From Candidatus Saccharimonadota bacterium (GTDB lineage: Bacteria; Patescibacteriota; Saccharimonadia; Saccharimonadales; Saccharimonadaceae), in NCBI GenBank assembly GCA_028289065.1, contig JAQGHA010000010.1, positions 113,422 through 177,421 on the forward strand: a stretch of 64,000 nucleotides of DNA, written 5' to 3'. How positions within the stretch are numbered: position 1 is the first letter of the stretch; every line of letters starts with the position of its first letter. A program made the translations under genes and the position numbers. The notes below the pieces were generated by a model that was not told the origin of the DNA, did no database searches, and worked only from the letters and a program-made list of their open reading frames with translations. Below are positions 12,655 to 50,377 of the stretch, in pieces.

Positions 12655-12730
12655 GTTCGAAGCTCGTCCACTAGGGGCTGCCAAAGAGCTTATGTTTTAA
12701 TAGATCACAGTAATGTGGTCAATTTGATTC
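12654..12730 (+). repeat. Cassette-array repeat copy 5 (right-half class B)
   Basis: AGTTCGAAGCTCGTCCACTAGGGGCTGCCAAAGAGCTTATGTTTTAATAGATCACAG... Confidence 0.85.
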
Positions 12731-12787
12731 CCCATACATTTGACTTTTCATATGTCATATGCTATAATATAACTGTACTTGTGAGAA

Positions 12788-12841
12788 ATACTCCAAGTTC
12801 AGGATTTGGAATTTCACATCTATTTCTATCGATTGGAGTAT
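12788..12841 (+). promoter_or_regulatory. 5' UTR hairpin sequestering the SD of the 12843 gene
   Basis: ATACTCCAA (12788-12796) pairs with TTGGAGTAT (12833-12841), which contains GGAG directly before ATG 12843. Confidence 0.5.
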
Positions 12842-12842
12842 C

Positions 12843-13100
12843 ATGGGCCTCGGCTCGCACCCCGGACTATCCGTCCTGCATCGTCTTCGTAATGGAGAAA
12901 CGGTTGAAATCGAGAACACCGGTATCTTCGTCAAGCAAATCCCTGGTGAACTTCAGCCTGACGATGATTATGTCGGCGCTCGTAATACGGTCAACCTGTT
13001 AAGCGTTGACCGTATTGAGCAAGGCTGGGTTGTTCCTCGTGAGGCTGGTTACAGCTTCGACCTCGGCGAGTGTGTTAAGGTCGAGATTGTCGACTGCTAA
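12843..13100 (+). CDS. Small unknown protein (cassette 5, GC-rich class)
   Basis: MGLGSHPGLSVLHRLRNGETVEIENTGIFVKQIPGE...; TTGACT-N17-TATAAT promoter. Confidence 0.65.
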   Translation: MGLGSHPGLSVLHRLRNGETVEIENTGIFVKQIPGELQPDDDYVGARNTVNLLSVDRIEQGWVVPREAGYSFDLGECVKVEIVDC

Positions 13101-13131
13101 ATCCTATCCTTCGCCCGAGAGCCCAAAAAAC

Positions 13132-13183
13132 TCTCGGGCAACACCCAGAGTTATTTATTGTGAATAAATAGTTGTGATTGTTG
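13132..13183 (+). repeat. R2 repeat copy a
   Basis: TCTCGGGCAACACCCAGAGTTATTTATTGTGAATAAATAGTTGTGATTGTTG. Confidence 0.65.
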
Positions 13184-13189
13184 AACGAA

Positions 13190-13271
13190 AGTTAGAAGCT
13201 CGTCCACTAGGGGCTGCCATAGAGCGTATGCTTAAATAGAATATATTGTAATGGTCTATTTTTGTTATTAT
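13190..13271 (+). repeat. Cassette-array repeat copy 6 (right-half class B)
   Basis: AGTTAGAAGCTCGTCCACTAGGGGCTGCCATAGAGCGTATGCTTAAATAGA...TTTTTGTTATTAT. Confidence 0.85.
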
Positions 13272-13277
13272 GTAGAC

Positions 13278-13766
13278 ATGGAAAAGCCTATAAATTTGTA
13301 CCATGCATCGCCTCAAAAAGATGTTTCTGAATTTGAACCACGGAATGAGTCTCCACGTTACACAGGCGAAGAGAATCTTGTATTCGCAACGCCACACAAG
13401 GAGGTGGCTGCCATGTTTCTAGTACCGAAAGATATTCCAACGGAAATAGGTAAGTACGGAGATGATCATGTAGTATTTGTAAATGGTACTGCAGAGGAGT
13501 TTAAGGCGCATGATATAGGCGGTGCGATTTATACCCTGCCTAATGATACGTTTGTAACCGATAGAGGAATTGGTATGGGTGATGTCGAGTGGGTAAGTAA
13601 CCAGTCGGTTAAGCCTATTTCCAAGACATTATACGAAACATCCATTGATGCACTACATGATAACCACGTAAGTGTGTACTTCTTAAATAAGGATGTCTTT
13701 TCTAGAATTCAAGCCAACCCGAGCAATGGGCTTGAAATTGTCAAAAGTTCGAAGCTCGTCCACTAG
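13278..13766 (+). CDS. Possible ADP-ribosyltransferase-fold-like protein (cassette 6)
   Basis: INLYHASPQKDVSEFEPRNESPRYTGEENLVFATPHKEVAAMFLV; ends ...SSKLVH* inside repeat copy 7; ATG 6 nt after TATTAT. Confidence 0.5.
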   Translation: MEKPINLYHASPQKDVSEFEPRNESPRYTGEENLVFATPHKEVAAMFLVPKDIPTEIGKYGDDHVVFVNGTAEEFKAHDIGGAIYTLPNDTFVTDRGIGMGDVEWVSNQSVKPISKTLYETSIDALHDNHVSVYFLNKDVFSRIQANPSNGLEIVKSSKLVH

Positions 13767-13826
13767 GGGCTGCCAAGCATAAGCATGATGATAAAAGTCT
13801 CCGAAATGGAGGCTTTTTGTTATGAT
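13746..13826 (+). repeat. Cassette-array repeat copy 7
   Basis: AGTTCGAAGCTCGTCCACTAGGGGCTGCCAAGCATAAGCATGATGATAAAAGTCTCCGAAATGGAGGCTTTTTGTTATGAT. Confidence 0.85.
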
Positions 13827-13833
13827 GAAAGTA

Positions 13834-14610
13834 ATGAAAAACTTAGTTATTGCCGTAAGTCCTGATTCTTCCCTTAAACTTCTTGGAGAATATGCAGACA
13901 TCATAGTACTTGATAAAGAATCTGTTCCGGTCACTATGCCATTTTATGAAACAGTTTATATTAGAAGCCACTTCGGTCGACCAGAAACCTTACCACAGGT
14001 TTATCGCACAGAAACTGAAGATATTATTAATCGAGCAAAACAGATAAATCCAAATATTAACTTCGTCGATGGCACCGACTCAGTAGACCTAATATTAGAC
14101 ACTGAAGACAAGTGGCGACAGTACGAGATTTACAGTAGCTTTATGCCGAATACAAAATTACTAAATGATAATTTAGACGTATCAGGTTTTGAGCGTCCAA
14201 TCTTTAAAAATCGGTTATCATCACATGGCAATGGGGTTACTTGGAATATAAATGAAACGACAATTCCCAGAGAAGATTGGCTCATTCAAGAATCACTAGA
14301 TATCACAGAAGAGTTACGCGTATACGTGATTAAGGGCAAAGTCTACCCAGTCGGTGCAATCCGTCAAAGCAAAACAATTGATCAAGGCACACAAGCAATT
14401 GACTCACGATATCTAACACCAGATGAAGTAGACTTCTGTCTAAAGATAGGGCTTCAAGCTCCCAGTTTAGATATAATTGGCCTAGATATTGCGCGTACTT
14501 CAAATGGCAAACTTTATCTGATTGAAGTGAATAGGTCACCCGGATTCGGTAAGTTTGCTGAATTAACAGGCGTTAATCTTGCAGATTTTCTGTATGATGA
14601 AAAGTTATAA
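13834..14610 (+). CDS. ATP-grasp (RimK-like) protein (cassette 7)
   Basis: PIFKNRLSSHGNGV...ITEELRVYVIKGKVYPVGAIRQ...IIGLDIARTSNGKLYLIEVNRSPGF. Confidence 0.75.
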   Translation: MKNLVIAVSPDSSLKLLGEYADIIVLDKESVPVTMPFYETVYIRSHFGRPETLPQVYRTETEDIINRAKQINPNINFVDGTDSVDLILDTEDKWRQYEIYSSFMPNTKLLNDNLDVSGFERPIFKNRLSSHGNGVTWNINETTIPREDWLIQESLDITEELRVYVIKGKVYPVGAIRQSKTIDQGTQAIDSRYLTPDEVDFCLKIGLQAPSLDIIGLDIARTSNGKLYLIEVNRSPGFGKFAELTGVNLADFLYDEKL

Positions 14611-14682
14611 CTTCGTGTACAGTGCCCTGCCAAGCATAAGTATTATAGAAAAGTCTCCGTTATGGAGGCTTTTTGTTATGAT
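14603..14682 (+). repeat. Cassette-array repeat copy 8 (diverged site)
   Basis: AGTTATAACTTCGTGTACAGTGCCCTGCCAAGCATAAGTATTATAGAAAAGTCTCCGTTATGGAGGCTTTTTGTTATGAT. Confidence 0.8.
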
Positions 14683-14689
14683 AAATATT

Positions 14690-14973
14690 ATGAATACCGA
14701 CTATGCAATCATAAGGCCACGACTGCACGCTGATTTTGAATTACCAACAAGACAAGAACTTTTGAAGTTGAAGCCTGGTGACAGTGTAAAGCTCATGTTT
14801 GAAGTTGGGAATGAAAATATCGAAAGAATGTGGTAACCCTTGCAGATACTTCGCGTGATGATACCTGGATAGGAACTATAGATAACGATGCTACCCAGCC
14901 ACTCACCGCAAATATATTGCCTGCAGATAAAGCCATAAGCTTTCATCCTTTAGATATTATCGCTACTTATTAA
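14690..14973 (+). pseudogene. Frameshifted DUF2314-like protein (cassette 8)
   Basis: ...LKPGDSVKLMFEVGNENIERMW* (stop 14834-14836) continues in another frame from 14833 as VTLADTSRDDTWIGTIDNDATQPLTANILPADKAISFHPLDIIATY*. Confidence 0.65.
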
Positions 14974-15054
14974 AGTTCGAAGCTCGTCCACTAGGGGCTG
15001 CCAAGCATAAGCAGTATTAAATTAGTCTCCGTTTAGGAGGCTTTTTGTTATACT
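14974..15054 (+). repeat. Cassette-array repeat copy 9
   Basis: AGTTCGAAGCTCGTCCACTAGGGGCTGCCAAGCATAAGCAGTATTAAATTAGTCTCCGTTTAGGAGGCTTTTTGTTATACT. Confidence 0.85.
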
Positions 15055-15060
15055 CATGAT

Positions 15061-15558
15061 ATGAATTTAGAATTTCCATATCAGTTAACGACATTCTTGG
15101 ATGACGAACCAACAATAGGTGAGCCAGTATATTATGGTGAGAACGGATGGTATCCACAAGTTGCGCTAAAGCGTAGGTTCAAAGCAGTCGGTATTACGGA
15201 GAATGAACTTCTTTTAAAAATGACAGAATACTTCAACTCAAAAAGAAGTTTTGAAATAAGAACTGGTGAACTTACACAACCTGAACGAATGCCAGTCAAA
15301 ATACTTGAAATAGCTCCAAATCCTGAGCTTATAAATTTTCACAATGATTTGATATCGTTTTTAGGAAATGCTATTTTGTCTAGATATCCTGAACGGGATG
15401 GTGCGAACTATTTACCACATGTAACAGCAGAATTTGACGGAAAAATGGTGATTAATGATAAAAAATACATTAATCAAACTTTTGATATTAAACGTATATA
15501 TTTGCTAAAAGATATTAGCGACGAGAATTCTGTTGCGTATAAAAGTTTTGATCTTTAG
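15061..15558 (+). CDS. 2H phosphoesterase/2'-5' RNA ligase-like protein (cassette 9)
   Basis: YLPHVTAEFDGKM...FDIKRIYLLKDISDENSVAYKSFDL; only one clear HxT motif. Confidence 0.5.
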   Translation: MNLEFPYQLTTFLDDEPTIGEPVYYGENGWYPQVALKRRFKAVGITENELLLKMTEYFNSKRSFEIRTGELTQPERMPVKILEIAPNPELINFHNDLISFLGNAILSRYPERDGANYLPHVTAEFDGKMVINDKKYINQTFDIKRIYLLKDISDENSVAYKSFDL

Positions 15559-15568
15559 TTCGTTGAAA

Positions 15569-15650
15569 AGTTCGAAGCTCGTCCACTAAGGGCTGCCATA
15601 GAGCTTATGTTTAAATAGACTACTGTGAAGTAATCTATTTTTGCTATTAT
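15569..15650 (+). repeat. Cassette-array repeat copy 10 (right-half class B)
   Basis: AGTTCGAAGCTCGTCCACTAAGGGCTGCCATAGAGCTTATGTTTAAATAGACTACTGTGAAGTAATCTATTTTTGCTATTAT. Confidence 0.85.
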
Positions 15651-15656
15651 TGAAAG

Positions 15657-16292
15657 ATGATAATTAACGATGTGCCATTCATTTCAAATACGCCCGACGA
15701 TACACATTGTTTGCAGGCTGCGTATATGAGCATTGCAAAGTATTTCGACCCAAAGTTCGATTTCTCGATGGACGACTGGGCTATTCTTACTGGTTATGAA
15801 GAGGGCTTGGGTACTTGGGCCAACGCTGGGCTAGTTTGGTTTACTGAGAATGGTTACGAAGTAAAACACTATGAAACATTCGATTTTAAAGAGTTTATCA
15901 AAAGCCCTAAAGAATATATGATACAAATTCATGGTATAGAAGCTGGAAACTGGGGCTATGAACACACTAATGTTCCTAAAGAAATACAACGAATGAAAGA
16001 ACTATTAGCTGCAGACATTGTCGAGAACAAAGAGCCGAGCATTGAGGACATTAAAAACGGTCTGAACGAGGGATATTTACCTCGAGTAACTATTAATGCT
16101 TATGTACTTGACGAAGAAGTTGGATATGAAGGTCATGCGGTCGTCATTACAGGATATGATGATAAGTTTATAGTTCTTCATGATCCAGGCTTGCCTGCAT
16201 TAGCTAATCGAAAAATTCCTGTCGATGTATTTATGAATGCTTGGTCTGCTCAAGAAAAAGAACTTGATTTAATTCGTCTAATTCGTAAGTAA
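15657..16292 (+). CDS. C39-like papain-fold cysteine peptidase (cassette 10)
   Basis: DTHCLQAAYMSIAKYF; YEGHAVVITGYDDKFIVLHDPGLPALANRKI. Confidence 0.65.
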   Translation: MIINDVPFISNTPDDTHCLQAAYMSIAKYFDPKFDFSMDDWAILTGYEEGLGTWANAGLVWFTENGYEVKHYETFDFKEFIKSPKEYMIQIHGIEAGNWGYEHTNVPKEIQRMKELLAADIVENKEPSIEDIKNGLNEGYLPRVTINAYVLDEEVGYEGHAVVITGYDDKFIVLHDPGLPALANRKIPVDVFMNAWSAQEKELDLIRLIRK

Positions 16293-16293
16293 A

Positions 16294-16373
16294 AGTTCGA
16301 AGCTCGTCTACTAGGCGCTGCCAAGTACAAGCATTATAGAGATGTCTCCATTTCGGAGACTTCTTGTTATTAT
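16294..16373 (+). repeat. Cassette-array repeat copy 11
   Basis: AGTTCGAAGCTCGTCTACTAGGCGCTGCCAAGTACAAGCATTATAGAGATGTCTCCATTTCGGAGACTTCTTGTTATTAT. Confidence 0.8.
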
Positions 16374-16379
16374 GTAGAT

Positions 16380-16687
16380 ATGACAAATAGCTACCAAAGT
16401 CTTATAAAAAATAAGTTAGTAACCTTTACTCACGAATGTAACTTGAATGAGCCAGTATTTGATGACGTAACGAGTGTAGCGGCAATTCCTTCTTATGTGT
16501 AAACCCGGCCCATCAAGGAAAAGGAGTAGGTGAAGCAATAATGCATCAGTTATTCAAAGCAGTATATGGACTAAATGTTGCATACGTATATGCAAAATTA
16601 TCTAAGACGAACCCATTTAAAGAAAAAATGAAGCACTCAGGTTTTAAAGAAACTGGAAACAGCTTATTTATGGATGTCTATAACTAA
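16380..16687 (+). pseudogene. Disrupted GNAT acetyltransferase (cassette 11)
   Basis: ORF 16380-16502 stops early; from 16499 another frame reads VNPAHQGKGVGEAIMHQLFKAVYGLNVAYVYAKLSKTNPFKEKMKHSGFKETGNSLFMDVYN* (GNAT motif A). Confidence 0.7.
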
Positions 16688-16760
16688 AGTCTAAGCTAGT
16701 CCATTTACAGCTGCCCAGCATATGTAATATAGAAAAGTCTCTAATGTAGAGGCTTTTTGT
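16687..16760 (+). repeat. Cassette-array repeat copy 12 (degenerate)
   Basis: AAGTCTAAGCTAGTCCATTTACAGCTGCCCAGCATATG...AAGTCTCTAATGTAGAGGCTTTTTG. Confidence 0.65.
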
Positions 16761-16846
16761 CTGACTGCTCATGTTTGCATTTGGTTCGTAAAAATGAGTA
16801 AATACAAATGCTACTCACAACCTACCTTGCAAAGAAGGAGTAAGAA

Positions 16847-27572: not shown

Positions 27573-30503
27573 TTATTTTACCTCAGCTTTTAGTAACCCG
27601 TCTGTATAAGCATATGTATAATTTGCATTATCGAACTGACCTATTGGATATTCATGAGCTGTATCCCAGCTATCTGGAGCCGCATTACAACCAGCTTCAC
27701 CAACAATAATCATACCTTTAACCCTGTCGAACCCAAGAACAACACCAGTATGACCACAAATTCCGCCACCCGGGCAAGACTGTGATCCAAAACGAGTACT
27801 AAATATTGCATTCACACGAGGTGTATGACCAATTTCTACTTGTGGGTTCCTTGCAGAAAGGTTCCGTATAACCGTCCCACCGTTTCCAGGTTGCGTACCA
27901 GCACCCATACCGCCAATGGTAGTAAACTTATTAATGAAGTATGCCGAGAAAGAAACGCAGTTGGAAAGCGGGCCGCCTCTACAATCTTGAGCAGCGCCAC
28001 CAATATACTGCATACTATCGGCCTTGTTATCGAGATATCTCTTAACAAATCCTTTTGCTTCTTCGATGGTCATTCCATCTTGAAGCTTTCTTAGACGTTC
28101 AGCTTCGACACGAGCCGCCGCTGCAGCTGCTGCTTCACCTTTTATCGCTTCCATTTGTCCATTTACTTGGTCAAAAATCTGTTGTGCTTCAATAACGCGT
28201 TTATCACCATGAGAAACTTTTTCATTAGGACGTTCAAAGTTCCATCGCCAATACGCAGCAGCTGCTGCTGGGTCGGTTATTCCAACAAAGCCTTCCCATT
28301 CATTTGCCTCCGGATTATCACGCTGGGTTCTGCCCTTCGACTCATCGATAGTGAAATTCACTTGGTAGGTAGGGTCTAGTACAGATACACCTTTTTCTTT
28401 GGCGGTGTTTTCCAAAGCTATTCGTCGTCCAAATGTATGTTGGAATAAACCTAAGCCTTTATCCTTTCGGGAAGTTTCCTCTTCTATTCCAGGCTTGTAA
28501 TACTTAGACTCAACGGATGAATTTCCAGCTGCTCCAGCGGCTGCTGCGAGCGACGCGCCAGCTGCGACCATCTGCCTTACAATAATTGTCTTTGCCTCTG
28601 GCCAACCAAAAGCGGCCGCTGCACGGTCAATTCCACCTTGCAACAAACGGTTAGGGTCAGCAGCAATAGCTTCAATTTCACTAAGTGCCGAGTTGCCTTG
28701 TGCGGCGGCGTCAGCGGCTGCTTTCGCTTCTGCGGCAGCCTTTGCTTCAGCATCTTTAAATCCTTGAATCTCCGCTGCCTGATCGGTGTCCGAAACGCTT
28801 GCAAGTAAAATGTAGGCATACATCGTCTCAACTGGTAATAAATGCGGCTCTTCGATATTAGCTTGAAGAGCGCCACCATTAGCAGCTAATGCATCTTTTG
28901 CTATTCCAACGTACTTTTCGAATAATTTCGCTTGATATGCGTCTGCCGGTGCTTTTATATCAGTGAGTAATGATTGAACATCAGGGGAATCCAGTACACT
29001 TTTATCATTAGCAGCAGCATCAAGTACGCTGAGGGCGGTGAGGGCAGTATTAATATAATGTACATCGGTGTGAAAACCTTTTACTGAATTTAAGTCTTTG
29101 AATGTTACTTGCATTAAGCGAGATTGTTTTACAAGTTCTGCATTGGTAGTTTCATATACCGGCACACCTTCTTGGTAAGTGGTTGAGACTACATCTTTAT
29201 TATGGAATTTCAAACGTATAAACGAAGCAGCAGAAGAAACATCGCCTTTATTAATAAGGTCTTTAATTTTTTGTATAACTAGCTGTTCGGGTGTCGCAGT
29301 TTTTTCATCTAGTTCAGGGACATCGCTTACTACATCAGGTACAGCCGATATTGGTTGAGACTCAATAAGCTTGCCATCTTCATCAATGGCCGTGTCGGGT
29401 AAACCGATATTATCAGGGTTAATATTTGTATCAAGTTTTGCTTTCAGATTTTCTTCGGGCGATGATGGAAAAATAGAGGTGTTGGGTTTTTCTGATTCTT
29501 TTAGTTCGACATTTACAGCGACATGAGTTTCAGAAATCGTTCTGGCGGCAGGAACTTCCGGCGCTGGAAAAACAGATGTAGATTCTTTTTCTTTGACAGT
29601 ATTTATATCATTTCCTACGCCCACTTCAATTTGACTAGAACTGGCAACAGGGGCTTCTGGTGTACCGAAAACGCTAGCTGAAGGCTTCGCTATAACTTGA
29701 TTGGTTGGCAATCCAACTTCGATAGCTGTTTCACCATTTTGAGTACTCACATTCGATGAGGCTTTGGTTGTTTGTATAGGACTTGCAAATGCCACGGTGT
29801 TTGCGGTGAGAACAGATGTTGCAACCATGGCAACAGTACCGGTACTTCTAATAATTTTTGCATGTTTTTTTGTAAAATTCGCAATATCTTCAACATACGA
29901 GGGTATTGTTTCGAATTCTATAGCAACGTTCAAATCATCAAGTATTTTATCTGCCAAATTCAATGCCGACAGCTCAGAAGCGGTAACTGACTTTTTCTGA
30001 GAGGAAGCATGGAGTTTTTTGTGACTTTTTTGTACATACTCTCTTTTTAAATTTCTAATCTTATCATCACCGATAGCTAATCCTATGGCAACAAAAGCAT
30101 CATTCATGTGATCTTCGAGAGTTATTTCAGGATTAAGTGCAATATCGATATATACCTTAGCCATATCCAATAGCGTCGATTCAGGAAAGTCTAAGTCACA
30201 AGTCTTTTTTATTGCCTCGCTGAATTTGGTTTCGGCATCGCGAATTTTATTTGCCTTACCTCTCGTTTGAGGCCTGATTTTGTGAACATCATCATTGTAT
30301 GAACTAAGTGTGCTCCAAAATGCATCAATCGCTAATTCATGACATATTTCATGCTCGGAGGTGACTATATTCTTTGGTAAATCGTCATATATCCGCTTAA
30401 TACCGTCTAAACCTGGTTTTCGGCCAAGCGATAAACTACGAGAATTAGTATTTTTAGTTTCAACTTCTAGTTCTTTTTCTCGGCGTATTTTAAGCGGTCC
30501 CAT
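27573..30503 (-). CDS. Large membrane-anchored protein with phage-tail-lysozyme-like and CHAP-like domains
   Basis: AGAAGNSSVESKYYKPGIEEE...GLGLFQHTFGRR; C-terminal NCVSFSAYFINKF...GHTGVVLGFD; TM near residue 220. Confidence 0.65.
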   Translation of the reverse strand: MGPLKIRREKELEVETKNTNSRSLSLGRKPGLDGIKRIYDDLPKNIVTSEHEICHELAIDAFWSTLSSYNDDVHKIRPQTRGKANKIRDAETKFSEAIKKTCDLDFPESTLLDMAKVYIDIALNPEITLEDHMNDAFVAIGLAIGDDKIRNLKREYVQKSHKKLHASSQKKSVTASELSALNLADKILDDLNVAIEFETIPSYVEDIANFTKKHAKIIRSTGTVAMVATSVLTANTVAFASPIQTTKASSNVSTQNGETAIEVGLPTNQVIAKPSASVFGTPEAPVASSSQIEVGVGNDINTVKEKESTSVFPAPEVPAARTISETHVAVNVELKESEKPNTSIFPSSPEENLKAKLDTNINPDNIGLPDTAIDEDGKLIESQPISAVPDVVSDVPELDEKTATPEQLVIQKIKDLINKGDVSSAASFIRLKFHNKDVVSTTYQEGVPVYETTNAELVKQSRLMQVTFKDLNSVKGFHTDVHYINTALTALSVLDAAANDKSVLDSPDVQSLLTDIKAPADAYQAKLFEKYVGIAKDALAANGGALQANIEEPHLLPVETMYAYILLASVSDTDQAAEIQGFKDAEAKAAAEAKAAADAAAQGNSALSEIEAIAADPNRLLQGGIDRAAAAFGWPEAKTIIVRQMVAAGASLAAAAGAAGNSSVESKYYKPGIEEETSRKDKGLGLFQHTFGRRIALENTAKEKGVSVLDPTYQVNFTIDESKGRTQRDNPEANEWEGFVGITDPAAAAAYWRWNFERPNEKVSHGDKRVIEAQQIFDQVNGQMEAIKGEAAAAAAARVEAERLRKLQDGMTIEEAKGFVKRYLDNKADSMQYIGGAAQDCRGGPLSNCVSFSAYFINKFTTIGGMGAGTQPGNGGTVIRNLSARNPQVEIGHTPRVNAIFSTRFGSQSCPGGGICGHTGVVLGFDRVKGMIIVGEAGCNAAPDSWDTAHEYPIGQFDNANYTYAYTDGLLKAEVK

Positions 30504-38862: not shown

Positions 38863-39561
38863 ATGATCGGAAATAATTTACGAGGAAACGTAGTTTCCCG
38901 GGCTATGCGAGTGCCCTTAGTAAAATGGGTGAAGGAACATAAAGGTAACAGTATCGCTATAAGCGGTATTATCTTGCTAATTATCATTGGGATAGTTGTA
39001 CTATTTGCTGTAACCCATGAAAAAACCGCTGAAGTAAAACTTACGCAAGTTGGGCTAGACTACCAACAAAAGCTACCTGAACTGAAAAAATCCGTCGATA
39101 AGACACCTAACGATGCTACTGCCCGTAAAAACTATGGCGTTGCTTTATATGCTACTGGCGACTTGGAAGGTGCCAAGAAACAATACGGACAAGCTGCCAA
39201 GCTTAATAATAAAGACGCTGTTATTCTTAATAACCTCGGTAATATTTATCGTGACTTAGGTAATGTCGATAAAGCGATTGATACATACAATAAATCGATT
39301 CAGCTTAATCCCAAATCGCTCAATACATATGCCAATTTAGCTAACATACAGATGTATAGCGAAAATAAACCTCAAGATGCTATTGACACTTATAATCGCG
39401 GGCTCTCCGAATTACCTAATAATACGCAACTTGAGTTGTTATTAGCCATTGCCTATGAACACGCGGGCGATGTATCGAATGCTAAGAAAACTTACAATGC
39501 CATATTGTCACATGATGCGAACAATAGTGCATCGAAGTTAGCGCTTGAACGATTACGCTAG
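38863..39561 (+). CDS. Membrane-anchored TPR protein
   Basis: ATARKNYGVALYATGDLEGAKKQYGQAAKLNNKDAVILNNLGNIYRDLGNVDKAIDTYNKSIQLNP. Confidence 0.85.
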   Translation: MIGNNLRGNVVSRAMRVPLVKWVKEHKGNSIAISGIILLIIIGIVVLFAVTHEKTAEVKLTQVGLDYQQKLPELKKSVDKTPNDATARKNYGVALYATGDLEGAKKQYGQAAKLNNKDAVILNNLGNIYRDLGNVDKAIDTYNKSIQLNPKSLNTYANLANIQMYSENKPQDAIDTYNRGLSELPNNTQLELLLAIAYEHAGDVSNAKKTYNAILSHDANNSASKLALERLR

Positions 39562-39615: not shown

Positions 39616-42600
39616 GTGATAGAAAATATAAAATACGGATATACGAAGAGGGTAAAGAACGCAGTTGTTTCTGTATTTTTATTCGTACTTAGCGTACTGG
39701 CCGTAACTGTATTTATTGACCCAGTACAAGCACTGGCTGCACCAGTTGTAACAAGTGTTGCACCGTCATCAGTGAGTCCAAATGGTGGTGACAGTATTAC
39801 CATCACTGGAAGTGATTTCGTTGATGGCGCCTTGGTGTACTTTGATAATATCCCAGCATCGTCCGTTACTTTCATCAGTCCCGAAACGCTGACTGCGGTA
39901 ACTCCGGCGAATAATACGGGAGTTAAAGATGTAACTGTTATAAATCCGGACACATCAGAAAATACATTAGTTAATAGCCTTACGTACACTGAATCAACCA
40001 TGACAGTTACTAGCATTGCGCCTACATCGGGTACGGTATTAGGAGATGACGATGTACTCATTTCCGGATCGAATTTTAGCCCTGGCGTCGCCGAAATTAC
40101 CAAAGTTAGCACCGGTGGAGCATTTTCTTGTGGAATTTATAACAATGAGGCGTACTGCTGGGGTGATAACAGTTTCGGTCAACTAGGTAATAATTCGAAG
40201 ACCCAATCCAGAGTACCAACACCCGTAGATACCTCTGGCGTGCTTGCCGGCAAAACAATCACTTCAATAAGCGCCGGTGATTACCGCGCTTGTTTGGTGA
40301 CGTCCGATAACCTTGCCTATTGTTGGGGATACGGTGATAACGGTGAATTAGGCAATGGGGGATACACTGCATCTCTTGTACCTGTCAAAGTACTATTGAC
40401 CGGTGCCCTTGAGGGCAAAACAGTAAAATCAATCTCAACTGGCCTCTTTCATACCTGTGTTGTTGCCTCTGATGACAAAGCCTATTGCTGGGGGAGTAAT
40501 AGCAGTGGCCAATTAGGTAACAATTCGACAGTCACGGCCCGCGTGCCGGTAGCAGTCAGTACAGCCGGTGTGTTAGCTAATAAAAATATTGCATCAATTG
40601 AAGCCGGTGGTCTTATTACCTGTGCCGTCACTACCGATGGTCAGGCGTCTTGTTGGGGTGCAAACTATTACGGCCAACTAGGTAACGGTGGAGTAAACCA
40701 ATCAAACACTCCAAAAGCAATTTATATGTTCGGTGTTTTATCGAATAAAACTATTACATCAATAAGCAGTACGAACGATCATACATGTTTAATTGCATCT
40801 GATGCGCAGGTATATTGTTGGGGTGGACCAAATGACTATGGACAATATGGAACCGGCGCCACTGGAACACAATCTGAAATTCCAGTAGCGACATATACTG
40901 GCGGGGAGATAGCGGGAAAAACCATAGTCGCTATTAGTACTGGTGCATACCATACATGTGCGCTTGATTCTGACAGTAAAGCATATTGTTGGGGTCGAAA
41001 CGAGTCAGGTCAACTTGGCATTGGGTCAAATTCAACTGCAACCCGTCCTGCAGCTGTTATTGCATCGGGCGCCTTGGCTCATAGAAAGATAACATCCATC
41101 AGTACTGGTACGGTACAAACATGCGTAAGTACCAACGATGGAGCGGCTATTTGTTGGGGTGTTAATATTCAAGGTCAGCTAGGTAATGGCTCAACAACCG
41201 CTTCCAACACGCCAGTTCAAGTAGCCAACGCGGCTATAAAAAATATAGATGTGACATTTGGCGGAATTGCTGCAACCAACGTGCAAATAGTATCTTCAAC
41301 TTCATTAAGCGCCAAGACACCTGCTCAATCTGCCGGCGCAAAAGATGTTGCGGTATCTCGTTATGATAGCGAAGTTGTCACGCTTCCGAATGCGTATACC
41401 TACATTGCAAACTCTTCTATAACGTCGGTCTCTCCAGCCAATGCGCCGAAAACAGGTGGCGACACAATTACAATTACCGGTACGGGCTTTGATGCAAATA
41501 CAAAAGTGAAATTGGCTGGAAATTATATCGATACCGTAACGTATATTGATGAAACCACGTTAACATTTATTACACCTGCAGCCGCTTCAGCTGGGCCGGT
41601 TGATGTATCGATTGAGGATACATCTGGGGCAACATCTACACTTACCGATGCATTTACGTACACCATACCGGATCCTGTGCTTGTATCAGTTTCACCGGCA
41701 GTGGGGCCTATGAATGGCGGCACTTCGATTACTATTAATGGTACTGGTTTTGATGCAAACCCAGATGGAGCCACATGGTATCAGGTACATATTGGCGACA
41801 TTTTAGCTACAGATGTAACATACGTAAACGATACGACACTGACTGCATCCACGCCGGCGGGCACCATTGGAATGAACGATGTTTCGGTCTCAAGCATATA
41901 TACGAATACCGTAACGCTGGCAGAAAGCTATACATATATAGCTCAGTCATATGCGTTTACGAATACCGCCTTAAACTTATCAAAGGATGAAATAGGTACG
42001 TTAGTTATTACCGCCCGTAATGGAAGCAATGCGCCCGTGACATCAACCGTACCTACCACAGTGACACTGGCGACAACGTCGGCTGGAGGTGCTTTTGCGC
42101 GCAACCTCAGCGAAGATATTACTAGTCGCTGGAGTTATACAACGGTTATTATTCCTGCCGGGCAATCGTCGGTGAATGTGTATTACAAAGATACAGCCAT
42201 AGGCACCCCAACAATTACGGGTACAGTCGAAGGTGTTGCATCGTTTACTCAACTTGCAACCATTAGCTCGCCATTTAGGTTTGTCGTTAATGGTGTCAGT
42301 GACCCAATTAAAGCCGGTGTGCCGAGCTCAGTTACTATTCGAGTTACCGATAAAAATGGCGTCCAACGTAATGATTACACCGGCACTATTGTGTTTAGTT
42401 CAGATGATCCACTCGCAACCTTACCGCTCAGTTATACGATGAAGCCAACTGATTATGGTATAAAGACGTTCACTAATGGTGTAACGATGGGAAGCGTTGG
42501 CGAATTCTGCGTTACAGCAGCCGATTCAGTTGATAGTGCGCTTGTAACGGGCCAACAGTGTAGCATTACTGTTCAATCGGCTACCGTTGGTACTATTTCA

Positions 42601-45600
42601 AAATTAGCTATTATCACCCCAGAACAACATATTACCGCTGGGAATTACAGTTCACCAATCACCATCCAAACTCAAAATGACTCAGGTGTAAGCGTTCCAG
42701 TCGCCAGCCAACAACACATCTATCTTTATTCGCCCTCAACCAGCGCCGAATTTAGCAATGACGGTGTAACTTGGTCGGGTACAATGCCTTTTGATACAAC
42801 TATTGAAACCGGCACCTCGTCAACAAATGTATATTTCCGGGATTCAGTTGCCCATACAACAACTATTAAGGCGAGCGATAATTCATCTGAAGCAACTGGA
42901 GCTGACTTTGGTTGGTTGAATGCTAACCAATCAATAACAACCGGTTTATCGCCACCAACCAAACTACGCGTTACTGGATTACAAGCCATGCTAAGCGGTC
43001 AAAAATCCTCCTATATGGTTGAATTAATAGACGACGCAGGCAATCTTGTTAGTACAGACTCCGATATTACCATTCGCGTAGATGGAGACACCCTGACCTC
43101 TCGCTTTTATAACCCAGCCACCAACCCAACCAGGACAGCCGGACCAACAGAATTTATTATCCCAACCGGCTTAAGTGGTGTAACTATTGGCTTTAGTGAT
43201 ACAACCCTAAGCTCCGGTACTGACTTCACTCGTCTTACATTTATTGATGGTCGTCCTCAAACCGATGCCATCCGATTACAAGACGCCACAAAAGACGTAC
43301 AGATTGTAGCGGCTCTACCAACCCAAATTAGTCTTAATGCCGAACTTACGACCATGGAAGCCGGCAACTCAACTGCAGTAGATATTCAATTACTTGACGA
43401 TGACGACCAAATTGCTCCTGCCGTTGAAACGACCGTTATCAACTTAGGTAGTTCTACCGGAAGCGGTCGTTACTCGCTGACCCAAACACCATTGACACCC
43501 ATATCATCGATCACTTTAGAGCAAGGTCAAACTACAAAACGCATATATTTCCAAGATACTGTTGCTGGAACGAGTACGTTAAGTGCCAGTCGAGCCAACA
43601 TGACGTCACAATCGGATAGTATTGAAATTACTACTTCCAATACCACGCGATTTGGTATTACTCCATTCAGTTCAACGACAACGGTTAACAATAGCTCTGA
43701 AGCCTTCACTATTACGAGTTATGACGTTTTTGGCAATATCGTCGTTCAAGATGCAGCACTGAACGTATACCTATACAGTGACCAGCCATCAACCGGCTTT
43801 TCAAACTCGCCAGCCGGCCCATGGAATGTAAGCTCGACTACAATCCCTGCTGGGCAATCATCGGTACAATTTTATGCAAAAGATTCGTCATTTTATGACA
43901 ACCCATTACAATTAACCGTCAGCGATAAATCTAGTTTAGATACCCCAGATACCGATATTGCCAATGCAACTGCCTCGCTATCAATAACCAGCCAACCCAT
44001 TTCCAGTATTGCCATCACATCAACTCCACAAACCGTTATTGCGGGTACTGTAGCTAATAAAATTGATGTCGAATTACGCGAAAGCAACGGCACACCAGCC
44101 TTACAAGACGGTACTGCGCGTGTAAATATCTCCATTTCTAATGGTAAATTTATAGCCACCAATGACGCTTCAGCCGTCACGATTAACAGTGTAGCCATAC
44201 CACGCGGTACGGCCACAGCATCGTTTTATTATTACAGCGAAAAGGCGGGGACATACACTATTAACGCCACAGTTACCGGAACCGCTACGACAACTACGCA
44301 GGCTATAACGGTTGATGCTGCCGCACCATCAAAGGTCATATACGAATTAGGGACACCACCAACCACTCCGAATGTAGCAACCAATGCGATTAAAGCCGTT
44401 ATTCGTGACCCGTTTAATAACAATGCTCATTTCAATAACGATAAAACCCTCACCTTAGCATCAACATGTACAACTGGATCATTCTCGTTAAGCAATACTA
44501 ATTGGCAAGGCATATCATCAATAAATATTACCGCCGGTGTCAGCGATGCGACCTATTACTATAAAGACAGTAACCCGGGTACGTGTACGCTCACTTCATC
44601 AATTAGTGGTATTACAACCGCCAGCCAGCAGGTGACAATAAATAGTTTTGCGGTGCAAAGTTTAGTCTTTTCAACGACCGCTCAAACTATAAAAGCTGGT
44701 GAGAAGACAGGTGTTATTACCGTTGAACTTCGTAAAGCCGATGGATCACCGGCATATCAAAATGGTTCAACCCAATTACAACTACAAGCAGACAGCGGCC
44801 AGTTCTTCGCTAACTCAGGTGATACGCAAACCGTCAGTACGATTACTATTGCTGCTGACCAAGCATCAGCCTCATTCTACTATTCTGGCACCTTATCCGG
44901 CACACGGACTATTACCGCTAGTATAGCGGGTGCGCCTAACTCGGTATCGCAACAAGTTACTATTACACCAGAACAAGCGTCTCAACTTAGCTTTACCACC
45001 CAACCGCAAACTGTTCCCGAAGGGTCGCCATCGGCTATAGTGCACGTAGCAATTCAGGACATGTATGGTAATAGTACACAAATTACCTCTAATAAGGTAT
45101 TGAACCTTACTTCAACTTGTATCAGCGGTACTTTCTCGGAAGACGATGTTGATTGGCAACCAGTCGCGAGTATTGCATTACCAAGTGGCAGCACTGACGC
45201 GAGTTTCTTTTACCGTTCGATGATTCAGGGAAGCTGTAGTTTAACGGTGAGTGCGAATGGGCTGCAATCTGCTAGTCAAAATATGACAATTTCTGATAGC
45301 AATTTCCCGGTGAGAATTGGTTTAAGTGTGCCGAGTGAAGAAGTAATAAAAGGTGAGACGCGCAATATTCTCATTTCATTATTAGATCAAAATGGTGATA
45401 TATCAGCAGCGAAGGTACGCACAACCGTATATGTTTCGACATCGTCGGACGGAGTATTTAATAACGCCAGCGTCGTCATTAATCCGGGAAGTTCAACGGC
45501 AACAGTTACGTATAAAAATAACATCTCTGACCAGGTGACTATTTATGCTCGCGACCAAGTGGGAGCTACAGACAGTGTAGGAAGCTTAGCAGATACCAGC

Positions 45601-48600
45601 GCTACCCTGACATACATTGAAGGCGCACCGTCGTCGGTTAAAATTCAAGCTCCTTCAACCGCCCCAGTAGGTGCGTCGACTGCTATAACAACATCATTAT
45701 TAAATACATACGGTTTACCCGTTTCGGCTGCTAGTAACACAATCGTTACATTTAGTTCGACCGATCAAACTGGGTTATTTTATGATGCCAATGGAAACAC
45801 TACTACTCAAATTACTGTTCTTGCCGGTCAGTCGCAAGCTACTATAAAATATCGTCAAACTACCGTTAACGTTGCTACCATCCGAGCGCAATCAACCAAC
45901 CTAACCCAAGCAACTTTGGATATTTCGACTATATCGCAAAACAATATTTCTGAAATTAGGTTCATTACCGGCCCGCAAACACTGGAAGTAGGTGTCGAAG
46001 GGACATTCCGAGTAGGATTATACGATGAATACGGTAACGTAGCCGTATCAAGCGGTGACATTACCTTGTATGCACAGTCAAATAGTACAAGTGTGTTATC
46101 GAACAATGGGCAGTTTACTATACCAGCCGGGCAATCAAATGCGACCTTTACCTATAAACAAAATACGGTTGGCCCGTTCACTATTACGGTGAGTGATTCA
46201 CTGACGGGTACTTCTGGTGCAATAACTACGATTACTCAAAATGGCGAAGCGATTGTGGGTAACCCGAAATCATTCCGTATTACACCAACTAATACCCAAC
46301 TCGAACGCGGCGGGGTCACAAATGCCATTACTGTCGAACTTCTGAATACTAATAATCAGGCGACACCGGCTACTAATGGAGGCCAGGTCGTCAACCTCGG
46401 CGACGTAAATAGTATTGGAAAATATTCATCAACACCTAACGGTAACTTTACCAGCCAGTTAGCGCTCACAGTACTTAATGGACAGACTTCGGCAACCTTT
46501 TATTACCGCAATGATACCAGTGCAGCCGGCACCTATTCAGTAGCAGCGAGTAGTACATTTGGTCAAACGCTTATTACTAAAAATGCGTCTGTCACTTTGG
46601 TTTACGGCGAACCAACTCAGCTGAAATACATTACTCAACCAATTACAGTCGAGGCAAATAGCCCATCGCGTGTGCTAACTATTCAACTGCAAAACCAATA
46701 TGGTAAGGGGGTGCCTGCGAATGGTGACAAAACAGTGTATCTATCAAGTGACTCAAACACTGGCCAATTTGCCAGTTCAAAAGTTGATTGGGGAGTCGAT
46801 AGTATTATTATTCAAAATGGCGCTTCAACGGCTGACTTTTACTACAAGGATACCGAAACGGGCGGACGGACAATTACCGCCAGTGATACATTACCGTTAT
46901 CTCCCGATGTCCTGCTTGCTAACGGGGTACAGCCACTCAGTGTCATCCCATCAACGAATACGCAACGAATTGTTAACAATTTCTTGGTTACTAATATTTC
47001 CGACCCTCAATCACAAGGTACGAATAGCTCGCTGGTTTTAATCGCTCGTGATGTTGATGGCTACATTGTTGAAAATTATAGTGGAACCGTGACATTTACC
47101 AGCAACGACCCACAAGCCGAATTACCGGATGATTATACATTTATTCCAAGTGTCGATAAGGGTGTAAGAGTATTTACCAATCACGTGTCATTTAGTACTG
47201 AGGGCGAAATGGTAGTCACAGCCACCGATACCAATGGCATTAACGGTGAACAGGCCGATATTACCGTCGGCGAGGCAAATACTAACCCAATTACTGCCCT
47301 GGCAATTACTCAGCCATCGTCACCGGTTACGATTGCGCCAAATACTACATCGCCAAACATCACTATTGAACTGCGCGATGCACTTGGTCATTCGACCAAT
47401 GCGGCAACGGGCGGTATGGCAATTCGCTTAACAAGCTCGTCGGCTACAGGCCAATTCGCCACCAGCACTGGCGGCCCATGGCAATCTAGCCTTGTTTTGA
47501 ATATTGCTGAAGGTCAAAGTTATACAAACGTTTATTACCGCGATTCAGCGGTTGGCGATGCAACTATTACTGCCCGTGATTGGAATAATGCGGCAGATAA
47601 TTCAGCTATTAGCAATGCTACTCTCGATGTTCTTGTTCATCGTACGTACGTTGCAGGTCAACAAACCATTCAAACACTTAACGCTTTAGGCCAGTACGAA
47701 ACAAGTGCACAGCTATTCGCACATACTAACGATGGGTCAGTAACAGGTAGAGTTAATAATGTCTTCAATTCACGTAACTTAGTAGATAACCAACCGGTAG
47801 CAGTGGAATGGCGAGTTCAATGGCGACAAGGTGTTAACCTTATCATGTCGGACAGCGCAAGTAATGAAACCGCTTTCACGTTTAATGTTGACCCAATTAA
47901 TACAACGGCTGGGGCTAATAACTTCTATGCGGTCGCCGAAACCACCGAAACCACATTCCAAGATAGTTACAGTGTCGTTAGTAAACAGCTTCAAGCTACT
48001 GTGTCGCCATGGAAAACAAGTATCGCCACTCAAAGCTACGCGCTTAACAGTAAACCGGTGGCTGCGACGGTAAAATTCCAAAATAATAATGCAGCCGCAA
48101 ACCCGGTGATCGTAAACATCTTCTTACTTCCAGCCGATGCTACAAATACAGTAAATGCAGTCAATGTCACTGGATATGCATCGCCCGGCAGCACGCTCGA
48201 ATATAGTATTCCTGCCGGTATTGCATCCTTAGGCGGAACATACAAGCTACTTGCCGTGACCTATGATGCCGATGGCAATACAACCTCACAGGTAGTTTCT
48301 AGCAGCTTTACAGTAATGGAAACTGCACCAATTGTTCCAACCACGCCGGTATCGCCAACTGACCCAACCAGCAATGACCCATCAACGCCTTCAGACACAT
48401 CAACAACTATTCCCGTTACTGAACCCGAAATACCAGTTAAGCCGGTGTCGCCTGAAGCGCCGTCGGCTGGTTCAGGAACAACCCCGACACCAATCGTTGC
48501 AGGTGCTGCCAATGACGCCTTAACAACCGCCGCAATTTTTGCTACCTACGGTACAACGCTGTTTGTTGGAATATTCTTATTCCGTGAATCATATAAAGAA

Positions 48601-49773
48601 TGGGCGCGAATCCACCGCATACGTACAGTGCTAAAACGTGAGCAGCAACTAGCGAACGACAAGAACACGTTCCTTTCACTGGCCTCGCATTACCTACGAA
48701 CCCCAATTACCATCTTAGATGCAACCGTAGGTATGATTCCAAACAGCGCCGTACTCAAATCGGTAGTCACTTCGTTACGCTTAAAAGCCGATGCCTTACT
48801 TGAAAATGGAGTGGCAACCACCCTAGCTGATATTAATAGCCCAGATATACAAAAAATTACCCGTACTGCGTTTGCATCGATATATTTCTGGCTTCCAATT
48901 GTCGTTTCAATCGCCTTAACCCTAGCTGTGACGCTACTGCTCAATACCGCCGCATCAGGCGTGACGCTCAATGATACGTTGGTTTATACGGCAATTATAG
49001 TATCGGCACTTGTATTAATAGTTGGCTTTGGAGCCCGAACGCTATATATAAACAAAGAAGTGTCGGCTGCTAAACAGATCATGGAACAGCATAGGTCACA
49101 GCTATTTAGTGCCAAAACCAGCTTTATAACCGCCCTACAAACAGAACTTTCAAATGAGATTCTACAGCTTCGTGAAGCACTTTCGACTAACACTACAATC
49201 CCGCTCAATGTTAAACCGCTGATTGAAGATGGTACGCAGCGTCTGCAAGGCCTTGTATCGAAACTGTCTGTGATTGCTAATATTAATGGTGTTTCTATGC
49301 AGGCAGATGATTTCACACCGCAGGAATTGGTGCAATCTAGCATTCAAATGCATCAAACTGAAATTGAACAAAAAAACCTAGTGGTAGAACAGAATTACAC
49401 CGAAAATGCGAAAGTGACACAAGACCAACGGATGCTTCGTTATGTTACCGGCACGGTATTGAATAATGCTGTTATGTTCTCACAGCCAAATAGCCATATC
49501 GAGATTAACTCTACTAAGAAGGGACGAAACACCCAAGTATCGATCACTAATGAAGATAGTTCATTTGGAAGCGCTGAAACAATCAGCGCAATGTTCGAAC
49601 CATTCAACCATGCTACTCATGAGAATGACTTAACCGTTGATGGCATCGGTTTAAGCCTGTACCTAGATAAATTGATTATGGAACATTTAGGTGGTTCAAT
49701 TTCAGCTAGTAACTCCGCCTTGCGACACAGTGCGACCATCAATATATTATTCCCTTCCGCTAAGTCATTATAG
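39616..49773 (+). CDS. Giant (3385 aa) surface protein: IPT/TIG domains, nested RCC1 repeats, many Ig-like repeats, TM segments, C-terminal histidine-kinase-like module
   Basis: Signal/TM; VTSVAPSSVSPNGGDSITITGSDF; seven CWGxN-type RCC1 blades; repeated TIPAGQSSVxFYYKD; C-terminal FLSLASHYLRTPIT, VLNNAVMFSQPN, DGIGLSLYLDKLIMEHLGGSI. Confidence 0.9.
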   Translation: MIENIKYGYTKRVKNAVVSVFLFVLSVLAVTVFIDPVQALAAPVVTSVAPSSVSPNGGDSITITGSDFVDGALVYFDNIPASSVTFISPETLTAVTPANNTGVKDVTVINPDTSENTLVNSLTYTESTMTVTSIAPTSGTVLGDDDVLISGSNFSPGVAEITKVSTGGAFSCGIYNNEAYCWGDNSFGQLGNNSKTQSRVPTPVDTSGVLAGKTITSISAGDYRACLVTSDNLAYCWGYGDNGELGNGGYTASLVPVKVLLTGALEGKTVKSISTGLFHTCVVASDDKAYCWGSNSSGQLGNNSTVTARVPVAVSTAGVLANKNIASIEAGGLITCAVTTDGQASCWGANYYGQLGNGGVNQSNTPKAIYMFGVLSNKTITSISSTNDHTCLIASDAQVYCWGGPNDYGQYGTGATGTQSEIPVATYTGGEIAGKTIVAISTGAYHTCALDSDSKAYCWGRNESGQLGIGSNSTATRPAAVIASGALAHRKITSISTGTVQTCVSTNDGAAICWGVNIQGQLGNGSTTASNTPVQVANAAIKNIDVTFGGIAATNVQIVSSTSLSAKTPAQSAGAKDVAVSRYDSEVVTLPNAYTYIANSSITSVSPANAPKTGGDTITITGTGFDANTKVKLAGNYIDTVTYIDETTLTFITPAAASAGPVDVSIEDTSGATSTLTDAFTYTIPDPVLVSVSPAVGPMNGGTSITINGTGFDANPDGATWYQVHIGDILATDVTYVNDTTLTASTPAGTIGMNDVSVSSIYTNTVTLAESYTYIAQSYAFTNTALNLSKDEIGTLVITARNGSNAPVTSTVPTTVTLATTSAGGAFARNLSEDITSRWSYTTVIIPAGQSSVNVYYKDTAIGTPTITGTVEGVASFTQLATISSPFRFVVNGVSDPIKAGVPSSVTIRVTDKNGVQRNDYTGTIVFSSDDPLATLPLSYTMKPTDYGIKTFTNGVTMGSVGEFCVTAADSVDSALVTGQQCSITVQSATVGTISKLAIITPEQHITAGNYSSPITIQTQNDSGVSVPVASQQHIYLYSPSTSAEFSNDGVTWSGTMPFDTTIETGTSSTNVYFRDSVAHTTTIKASDNSSEATGADFGWLNANQSITTGLSPPTKLRVTGLQAMLSGQKSSYMVELIDDAGNLVSTDSDITIRVDGDTLTSRFYNPATNPTRTAGPTEFIIPTGLSGVTIGFSDTTLSSGTDFTRLTFIDGRPQTDAIRLQDATKDVQIVAALPTQISLNAELTTMEAGNSTAVDIQLLDDDDQIAPAVETTVINLGSSTGSGRYSLTQTPLTPISSITLEQGQTTKRIYFQDTVAGTSTLSASRANMTSQSDSIEITTSNTTRFGITPFSSTTTVNNSSEAFTITSYDVFGNIVVQDAALNVYLYSDQPSTGFSNSPAGPWNVSSTTIPAGQSSVQFYAKDSSFYDNPLQLTVSDKSSLDTPDTDIANATASLSITSQPISSIAITSTPQTVIAGTVANKIDVELRESNGTPALQDGTARVNISISNGKFIATNDASAVTINSVAIPRGTATASFYYYSEKAGTYTINATVTGTATTTTQAITVDAAAPSKVIYELGTPPTTPNVATNAIKAVIRDPFNNNAHFNNDKTLTLASTCTTGSFSLSNTNWQGISSINITAGVSDATYYYKDSNPGTCTLTSSISGITTASQQVTINSFAVQSLVFSTTAQTIKAGEKTGVITVELRKADGSPAYQNGSTQLQLQADSGQFFANSGDTQTVSTITIAADQASASFYYSGTLSGTRTITASIAGAPNSVSQQVTITPEQASQLSFTTQPQTVPEGSPSAIVHVAIQDMYGNSTQITSNKVLNLTSTCISGTFSEDDVDWQPVASIALPSGSTDASFFYRSMIQGSCSLTVSANGLQSASQNMTISDSNFPVRIGLSVPSEEVIKGETRNILISLLDQNGDISAAKVRTTVYVSTSSDGVFNNASVVINPGSSTATVTYKNNISDQVTIYARDQVGATDSVGSLADTSATLTYIEGAPSSVKIQAPSTAPVGASTAITTSLLNTYGLPVSAASNTIVTFSSTDQTGLFYDANGNTTTQITVLAGQSQATIKYRQTTVNVATIRAQSTNLTQATLDISTISQNNISEIRFITGPQTLEVGVEGTFRVGLYDEYGNVAVSSGDITLYAQSNSTSVLSNNGQFTIPAGQSNATFTYKQNTVGPFTITVSDSLTGTSGAITTITQNGEAIVGNPKSFRITPTNTQLERGGVTNAITVELLNTNNQATPATNGGQVVNLGDVNSIGKYSSTPNGNFTSQLALTVLNGQTSATFYYRNDTSAAGTYSVAASSTFGQTLITKNASVTLVYGEPTQLKYITQPITVEANSPSRVLTIQLQNQYGKGVPANGDKTVYLSSDSNTGQFASSKVDWGVDSIIIQNGASTADFYYKDTETGGRTITASDTLPLSPDVLLANGVQPLSVIPSTNTQRIVNNFLVTNISDPQSQGTNSSLVLIARDVDGYIVENYSGTVTFTSNDPQAELPDDYTFIPSVDKGVRVFTNHVSFSTEGEMVVTATDTNGINGEQADITVGEANTNPITALAITQPSSPVTIAPNTTSPNITIELRDALGHSTNAATGGMAIRLTSSSATGQFATSTGGPWQSSLVLNIAEGQSYTNVYYRDSAVGDATITARDWNNAADNSAISNATLDVLVHRTYVAGQQTIQTLNALGQYETSAQLFAHTNDGSVTGRVNNVFNSRNLVDNQPVAVEWRVQWRQGVNLIMSDSASNETAFTFNVDPINTTAGANNFYAVAETTETTFQDSYSVVSKQLQATVSPWKTSIATQSYALNSKPVAATVKFQNNNAAANPVIVNIFLLPADATNTVNAVNVTGYASPGSTLEYSIPAGIASLGGTYKLLAVTYDADGNTTSQVVSSSFTVMETAPIVPTTPVSPTDPTSNDPSTPSDTSTTIPVTEPEIPVKPVSPEAPSAGSGTTPTPIVAGAANDALTTAAIFATYGTTLFVGIFLFRESYKEWARIHRIRTVLKREQQLANDKNTFLSLASHYLRTPITILDATVGMIPNSAVLKSVVTSLRLKADALLENGVATTLADINSPDIQKITRTAFASIYFWLPIVVSIALTLAVTLLLNTAASGVTLNDTLVYTAIIVSALVLIVGFGARTLYINKEVSAAKQIMEQHRSQLFSAKTSFITALQTELSNEILQLREALSTNTTIPLNVKPLIEDGTQRLQGLVSKLSVIANINGVSMQADDFTPQELVQSSIQMHQTEIEQKNLVVEQNYTENAKVTQDQRMLRYVTGTVLNNAVMFSQPNSHIEINSTKKGRNTQVSITNEDSSFGSAETISAMFEPFNHATHENDLTVDGIGLSLYLDKLIMEHLGGSISASNSALRHSATINILFPSAKSL

Positions 49774-49844: not shown

Positions 49845-50237
49845 TTATTGAACAGCTATTAGTTCAATATCAAATACTAAATCACTATTCGGTGGGATAG
49901 CTGATGAAGCCCGGCGGCCACCATAGGCCATTTCTGAAGGAATTACTAAGCGCCGAGTGCCGCCAACTTTCATACCAGGTACACCAATAGTCCAGCCGTC
50001 AATTACTTGATGAAGCCCGAAAGTTGCTGGACGACCGGAGTCGTGGCTGCTTTCAAAAATTGAACCGTCGGTACAGAGCGCGCCGGTGTAGTGAGCAGTA
50101 ATGGTAGCGCCAACTGGAACTTCTTCGCCGGTTCCAACAACCAAATCAATAGTTTGGAGTTCTGCGACTTTAGTTTTCTTTCCTAGCGGAATATAGTCTT
50201 GTAACGTAGTGCCTTTAAGCTTGTGTGGATTAGTCAT
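49845..50237 (-). CDS. FKBP-type peptidyl-prolyl isomerase
   Basis: VPVGATITAHYTGALCTDGSIFESS...VIPSEMAYGGRRASSAIPPNSDLVFDIEL. Confidence 0.92.
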   Translation of the reverse strand: MTNPHKLKGTTLQDYIPLGKKTKVAELQTIDLVVGTGEEVPVGATITAHYTGALCTDGSIFESSHDSGRPATFGLHQVIDGWTIGVPGMKVGGTRRLVIPSEMAYGGRRASSAIPPNSDLVFDIELIAVQ

Positions 50238-50377
50238 ATAACTATTATACCAAGCTCGTAGACAGTCGTAAGTATTGCTATATATTGTATTTTAGTATAT
50301 TGTATTTTTATCTCAGAACACTAGAGAGCCCTTTTTCCATTTTTTAGCGAAAGCTAAAAACCAACCATCGGAGTGTC

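Follow-up and report, generated by a model that had tools for sequence, protein, structure and literature searches.

The locus described here raises two questions: whether a Saccharibacteria genome encodes a large surface protein and a sensor kinase in a single chain and, if so, whether the kinase part still acts as a kinase. It lies in a 64,000-nucleotide stretch of DNA from a Candidatus Saccharimonadota bacterium, called the window below. A first-pass annotation had described one of its open reading frames as a giant adhesin fused to a histidine-kinase-like module, and read it as a receptor coupling adhesion directly to signalling upon host contact. The observation on this frame is confirmed, and the interpretation is partly supported. 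The gene, its upstream neighbor and the extracellular part of its product have the following features.

38863-39561, + strand: membrane-anchored TPR protein, 54 nt before the giant gene; conserved upstream partner
39616-49773, + strand: whole giant receptor ORF, 3385 aa; the fusion recurs in independent genomes
39616-39738, + strand: N-terminal signal sequence with a hydrophobic stretch at aa 12-46 (hydropathy; positions approximate)
39742-40005, + strand: first TIG/IPT domain region, aa 43-130, end approximate (TIG, TIG_SUH; CoaZ_rpt_PGGG at 42-116)
40093-41265, + strand: RCC1 repeats with seven CWG motifs, a β-propeller, aa 160-550, approximate (Pfam: WD40_RLD 3.8e-74, RCC1 1.7e-51)
41416-41925, + strand: further TIG domains, aa 601-770 (Pfam)
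41938-47586, + strand: Ig-like repeat of ~102 aa, at least 14 (about 15) full and several partial copies, aa 775-2657 (iterated HMM)

The frame starts with GTG and runs uninterrupted, with no internal stop. The surface-type repeats noticed earlier resolve into TIG domains (Pfam E-value 4.5e-29 in the giant protein), the RCC1 propeller and the long array of ~102-residue repeats, the copies of which were counted with an HMM iterated from seven seed copies. An AlphaFold2 (AF2) model of this repeat, built from 28 aligned copies, is an all-β domain with a pLDDT of 91.7. By fold it comes closest to Ig-like domains from surface glycosidases, with TM-scores up to 0.65 and weak E-values (best 5.8e-3, nothing below 1e-3); an S-layer protein stands lower among these weak matches, and a sequence search of the PDB gave weak matches to FimG. 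Because the sequence and fold matches are both weak, the label "Ig-like" rests on the predicted shape. A signal peptide and a long extracellular array of repeat domains are features of giant surface adhesins, and the protein has both. It may bind other cells, and a role in sensing host contact is plausible. In PilX2, a pilin of Saccharibacteria, an RCC1 propeller is a proposed host-binding part (PMC12206443), a precedent that makes host contact plausible as the signal.

The signalling module was defined as the C-terminal 425 residues, with three transmembrane (TM) segments, two helical hairpins and an HATPase_c domain. Its order is exchangeable ectodomain, TM1, DHp1 with the His, TM2, TM3, DHp2 without the His, and the catalytic (CA) domain.

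48517-48582, + strand: TM1, aa 2968-2989 (hydropathy, AF2)
48643-48831, + strand: DHp1, a HisKA-like hairpin with FLSLASHYLRTPIT (HisKA profile, alignment, AF2)
48688-48690, + strand: candidate phospho-His, aa 3025, His65 in module numbering (His in 36/37 members)
48880-49038, + strand: TM2-TM3 hairpin between both DHp hairpins (hydropathy, AF2; constant spacing)
49102-49299, + strand: DHp2, a HisKA-like hairpin without the His; Thr (T216) in its place, nt 49141-49143
49300-49755, + strand: HATPase_c (CA) domain, N-box Asn and G2 box kept (Pfam, alignment)
49549-49563, + strand: degenerate G1 box, NEDSS versus DxGxG in relatives (alignment)

These assignments bear out what had been reported of the tail. 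The HATPase-like region (aa 3270-3380) matches HATPase_c with an E-value of 1.7e-6 in the whole protein and 2.3e-7 in the 425-residue module; the scores over both searches, 28.9 (whole protein) to 31.7 bits, exceed the Pfam cut-off of 26.4. Its N-box (LNNAV), F-box (MFEPF) and G2 box (DGIGLSL) are kept. The HisKA profile is weak on the first box of the window copy (E 0.018, below cut-off) and matches its relatives with E-values up to 2.1e-6 (10 of 13 members). The two further TM segments form the TM2-TM3 hairpin, and the "second degenerate helix" seen earlier is part of a genuine HisKA-like hairpin, which a profile comparison aligned to the H-box of GacS. In the AF2 model the helices span module residues 8-78 (TM1 and the first DHp1 helix), 85-109, 129-153 (TM2), 160-231 (TM3 and the first DHp2 helix) and 240-265, followed by the α/β CA domain. 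The pLDDT of the model is 74.8, with low confidence at residues 361-383, from the F-box to the G2 box. Foldseek matched the module to histidine-kinase cores with E-values of about 1e-11.

A search with the module found members in the window genome and in 10 of 150 other genomes of its family (11 of 151). Across the order (Saccharibacteria), 29 of 391 genomes have members, as do 8 of 381 in a phylum sample that includes other families and classes of Patescibacteria; the named records with the module are Candidatus Saccharibacteria. Member proteins range from about 620 to 6781 residues and carry RCC1/TIG domains, NHL propellers, Fn3, GLUG, PA14, DUF11 or short Cys-rich stretches as ectodomains.

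Two homologous halves in one module

Alignment of 37 distinct members showed which parts of the module are kept. The DHp1 box is of the type FxxL[AS][ST]HY[LI][RN]TP, with the His in 36 members and Asn in one, and no member has a His at the equivalent place in DHp2. Of the 37, 36 have the N-box Asn and 32 an intact G1 box. Most relatives have every catalytic box intact, that is the DHp1 His and the N, G1, F and G2 boxes of CA. In all aligned members TM2-TM3 and DHp2 stand between the His-bearing DHp1 and the CA domain.

The spacing is constant. E35 and H65 are 30 residues apart in 37/37, the TM hairpin from P134 to R181 measures 47 residues in all spacing classes listed, and R181 is followed after 35 residues by the place equivalent to the His (T216) in 36/37. 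In the model of the window copy, the two halves have matching helices of 71 and 72 residues, with His65 at a depth of 57 residues in the first and T216 at 56 in the second. A profile-profile comparison of TM1-DHp1 with TM3-DHp2 matched the two in that same register with a probability of 93.3% and an E-value of 2.8e-7, and controls with reversed, shuffled and CA profiles gave 1.9% or less. Together, the profile match, the fixed spacing and the helix register show that the two halves are homologous and stand at equal height below the membrane.

The simplest history would be a joining or duplication of TM-DHp(-CA) kinase units with complementary loss, the first half giving up its CA and keeping the His, the second giving up its His and keeping the ATPase. 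The equal register suggests that DHp1 and DHp2 of one chain may pack as one four-helix bundle; alternatively, it could reflect two separate homodimeric bundles. In the intact relatives, the CA carried on DHp2 would phosphorylate the His of DHp1. Tentatively, the family might be a single-chain asymmetric kinase, with DHp1 beside DHp2-CA as a built-in pseudo-heterodimer that ties one ectodomain to one catalytic event, and the clade of the window protein a derived form in which a giant RCC1/TIG receptor signals through a pseudokinase.

One member departs from the common pattern at the His itself. In the protein encoded at L073:4962-11441 (genome G208), Asn replaces the DHp1 His and G1 is intact; a stand-alone receiver gene lies 46 bp upstream on the same strand.

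Loss of the G1 box and the state of the window copy

The G1 box reads NEDSS in the window copy and NTTNA in the related giant of genome G065, and is unrecognizable in that of G057, which also lacks the N-box and part of G2. These three giant RCC1/TIG proteins form one clade with an SH-aLRT support of 93 (99 for the window protein with G065); G057 is a long branch, and a single loss of G1 in one clade rests on the support of 93. G1 is lost as well in members from two further genomes (G049 and G734). The idea that its loss marks all giants was rejected, since the box persists in giants of 1.2-2.8 kaa from other families.

Loss of the box is accompanied by a change in conservation. Between pairs of intact members, CA is on average 6 percentage points more identical than DHp1, whereas for the three pairs within the G1-lost clade its identity falls 8 to 12 points short of that of DHp1, a deficit beyond about 99% of 496 intact pairs, which are not independent of one another. 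A CA less conserved than DHp1 fits a relaxed constraint on the ATPase with DHp1 still kept. DHp1, 48% identical between the window protein and G065, is the best-kept cytoplasmic part.

The window protein has a kinase fold with a catalytic motif lost inside a family of intact kinases, one of the features of a pseudo-histidine kinase. Since G1 is lost, CA is relaxed and the DHp1 His is kept, it is, on balance, likely to be a pseudokinase receptor, in which the signal from the ectodomain would pass through DHp1 to an unlinked partner with no ATP-driven autokinase step. Loss of G1 is no proof that ATP binding is lost; the N, F and G2 boxes stay and HATPase_c scores above its cut-off. Judged by its boxes, the kinase reading holds for the family and the window protein is probably without kinase activity. 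The part of the first-pass reading that stands is therefore the direct fusion of large exchangeable ectodomains to a histidine-kinase-type module; the part that is not supported for the window copy is autokinase function, with G1 gone. That reading had been said to fall if ATP-binding residues were missing and homologues lacked the His: the former is true as far as G1 is concerned, and the latter is not, the His being present in 36 of the 37.

That the window protein is nevertheless an active receptor histidine kinase, in which a ligand drives autophosphorylation of His3025 by CA and the phosphate goes to an orphan response regulator, appears unlikely. It has the His, N-box, F-box and G2 box of such an enzyme, and most of its relatives look catalytically complete. 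A regulator could be at hand. As had been noted, none adjoins the giant gene, and only 2 of about 29 member loci have one within 200 bp. The genome-wide search that had been suggested for orphan regulators found 8 receivers elsewhere, along with 8 ordinary HisKA matches, mostly paired by position; at least one or two of the receivers (C8:98260 and C1:133471, both near contig ends) have no immediate kinase. Against this stand the NEDSS sequence in place of DxGxG and the relaxed conservation of CA relative to DHp1 in the clade.

The residues around the His are less decisive. The H+1 residue is Tyr in 32, His in 4 and Phe in 1 of the 37 members, and Tyr in the window copy. In four HisKA kinases, kinase activity depended on an acid at H+1 and phosphatase activity did not (PMC3510030), which speaks against autophosphorylation here. 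The ordinary kinases of the window genome carry Glu (4) or Gln (3) at H+1; because Gln occurs there, the evidence is weak, and a missing acid cannot be taken as proof of a dead kinase. The Thr at H+4, kept in 35/37, corresponds to the Thr/Asn required for phosphatase activity (PMC3510030). By analogy, Tyr at H+1 together with this Thr weakly hints at phosphatase or acceptor roles.

A second alternative is decay of the kinase tail, with the protein now serving as a membrane-anchored adhesin only. The loss of G1, the further losses in G057 and the faster divergence of CA than of DHp1 in the clade are what decay would produce. On the other hand, three independent giants have no stops or frameshifts, DHp1 is the best-kept part and retains its His, and the spacing of DHp2 is unaltered, so that decay is improbable.

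The preferred explanation, the pseudokinase receptor, would then work as follows. In the lineage of the window protein, G065 and G057, CA has lost G1 and is relaxed, while DHp1 has stayed with its His. The helices below the membrane would shift upon binding at the RCC1/TIG/Ig-repeat stalk, in which the TPR protein may assist. DHp1 would in turn serve as phospho-acceptor, phosphatase or competitor toward a response regulator or partner kinase encoded elsewhere.

Recurrence of the fusion and its gene neighbors

Misassembly or a chimeric join of a surface-protein gene to a kinase gene, which the 17 contigs of the genome and the absence of the module from the other sampled genomes of its genus might suggest, is rejected as extremely improbable, since the fusion recurs with an intact His in independent genomes: the 6781-residue G057 protein has the TIG/RCC1 N-terminus, the ~102-residue repeat family and the tail of the window protein on one contig, the C-terminal piece in G065 alone, a frame of 3534 aa running off its contig, joins window-type repeats to the tail, and many genomes fuse other ectodomains to the module. 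Together with the uninterrupted frame, this contradicts the possibility of two separate genes that the first-pass annotation had raised.

The gene directly upstream recurs with the giant. Homologues of the TPR protein were found in only 4 of 151 family genomes, the window genome, G057, G065 and G114, and in all four the TPR gene directly precedes the N-terminal part of a giant surface protein, either TIG/RCC1 or similar. If the giant has a partner in signalling or in assembly outside the cytoplasm, the TPR protein is the strongest candidate. G114 has two such loci (L117 and L118), and its full C-terminal kinase module was not found, both contigs stopping inside the giants; one of these two giants has an ectodomain of a different, non-RCC1 type. 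In G127, a genome of the same genus as the window genome, only about 1 kb separates the homologues of the two genes flanking the pair, a PAP2 phosphatase gene and the ORF at 49845-50291, and no giant stands there. Because these flanking homologues adjoin without the giant, the TPR-giant pair is taken to be an accessory island.

Two other sets of member loci are of note. At L069 and L068 (G203 C12), a stretch of about 33 kb contains four paralogous receptors with the kinase module, adjoining a row of guanylate-kinase-like, HrcA-like and GrpE-like genes, members of which are found near receptor genes in related genomes too. The member at L038 (G213 C11) was read through one in-frame TAG and may be a pseudogene or contain a sequencing error.

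Elsewhere in the window, an 80-90 nt repeat (AGTTCGAAGCTCGTCCACTAGGGGCTGCCAAGCATAAGC, a spacer and AGTCTCCGTTTTGGAGGCTTTTTG) occurs at least 12 times in positions 10046-16770. The copies sit singly in the gaps along a row of small ORFs, at the 3' ends of these, and some contain the stop codon. In form this resembles an array of gene cassettes with a terminator-like 3' half. A serine recombinase gene (5688-7178, - strand) overlaps tRNA-Trp (5670-5744), and beyond it lie many small ORFs of unknown function, a ParA-like gene and a phage-tail-lysozyme ORF (27573-30503). This region is probably an integrated mobile element.

Relation to known kinases and receptors

Little is known about host sensing by episymbiotic Saccharibacteria, and a recurrent receptor class with exchangeable ectodomains on a conserved, recognizable signalling module supplies concrete genes for its study. 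The open-licence literature searched yielded no account of a Saccharibacteria kinase with tandem DHp or fused to an adhesin, and a module with His and ATPase on two homologous hairpins around a membrane hairpin is undescribed in the papers and family libraries searched. Such a module would show a dimeric kinase folded into one chain, and the disarmed giant clade would be a natural experiment on DHp function without ATP.

The window module is a variant of the HisKA/HATPase_c sensor kinases such as PhoR/PnpS, WalK and HK853, with which it shares the TP-bearing H-box, the hairpin DHp and the N, F and G2 boxes of HATPase_c; HK853 is among its Foldseek matches at E-values of about 1e-11. Unlike these kinases, the family has a TM hairpin and a His-less second DHp between His and ATPase, carries Tyr, His or Phe at H+1 and mostly lacks an adjoining response regulator, and the window copy lacks G1 as well.

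DivL and RetS, both among the fold matches of the module, have the kinase fold and are thought to work through DHp contacts, not as ordinary autokinases. DivL lacks the His, whereas the window clade keeps the His and has lost G1; the giant ectodomain and the second DHp set the window protein apart from both. The Bacteroides hybrid two-component systems also combine a large extracellular part of propeller and Ig-like modules with a kinase core in one chain. In contrast to them, the giant protein has no receiver or AraC output, has three TM segments before CA, and has its DHp duplicated.

The proposed division of labor has a parallel in the split histidine kinases CheA3 and CheA4 of Rhodobacter (PMC3591291), in which the phospho-acceptor His and the ATPase are likewise on different, complementary units; in the module, these units are of the HisKA type, not CheA P1/P4, and belong to one membrane-spanning chain. 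Finally, PilX2 of Nanosynbacter lyticus TM7x (PMC12206443) shares with the giant an RCC1 seven-bladed propeller displayed on a Saccharibacteria surface protein; PilX2 is a pilus component without a signalling module, whereas the window protein joins its propeller to one.
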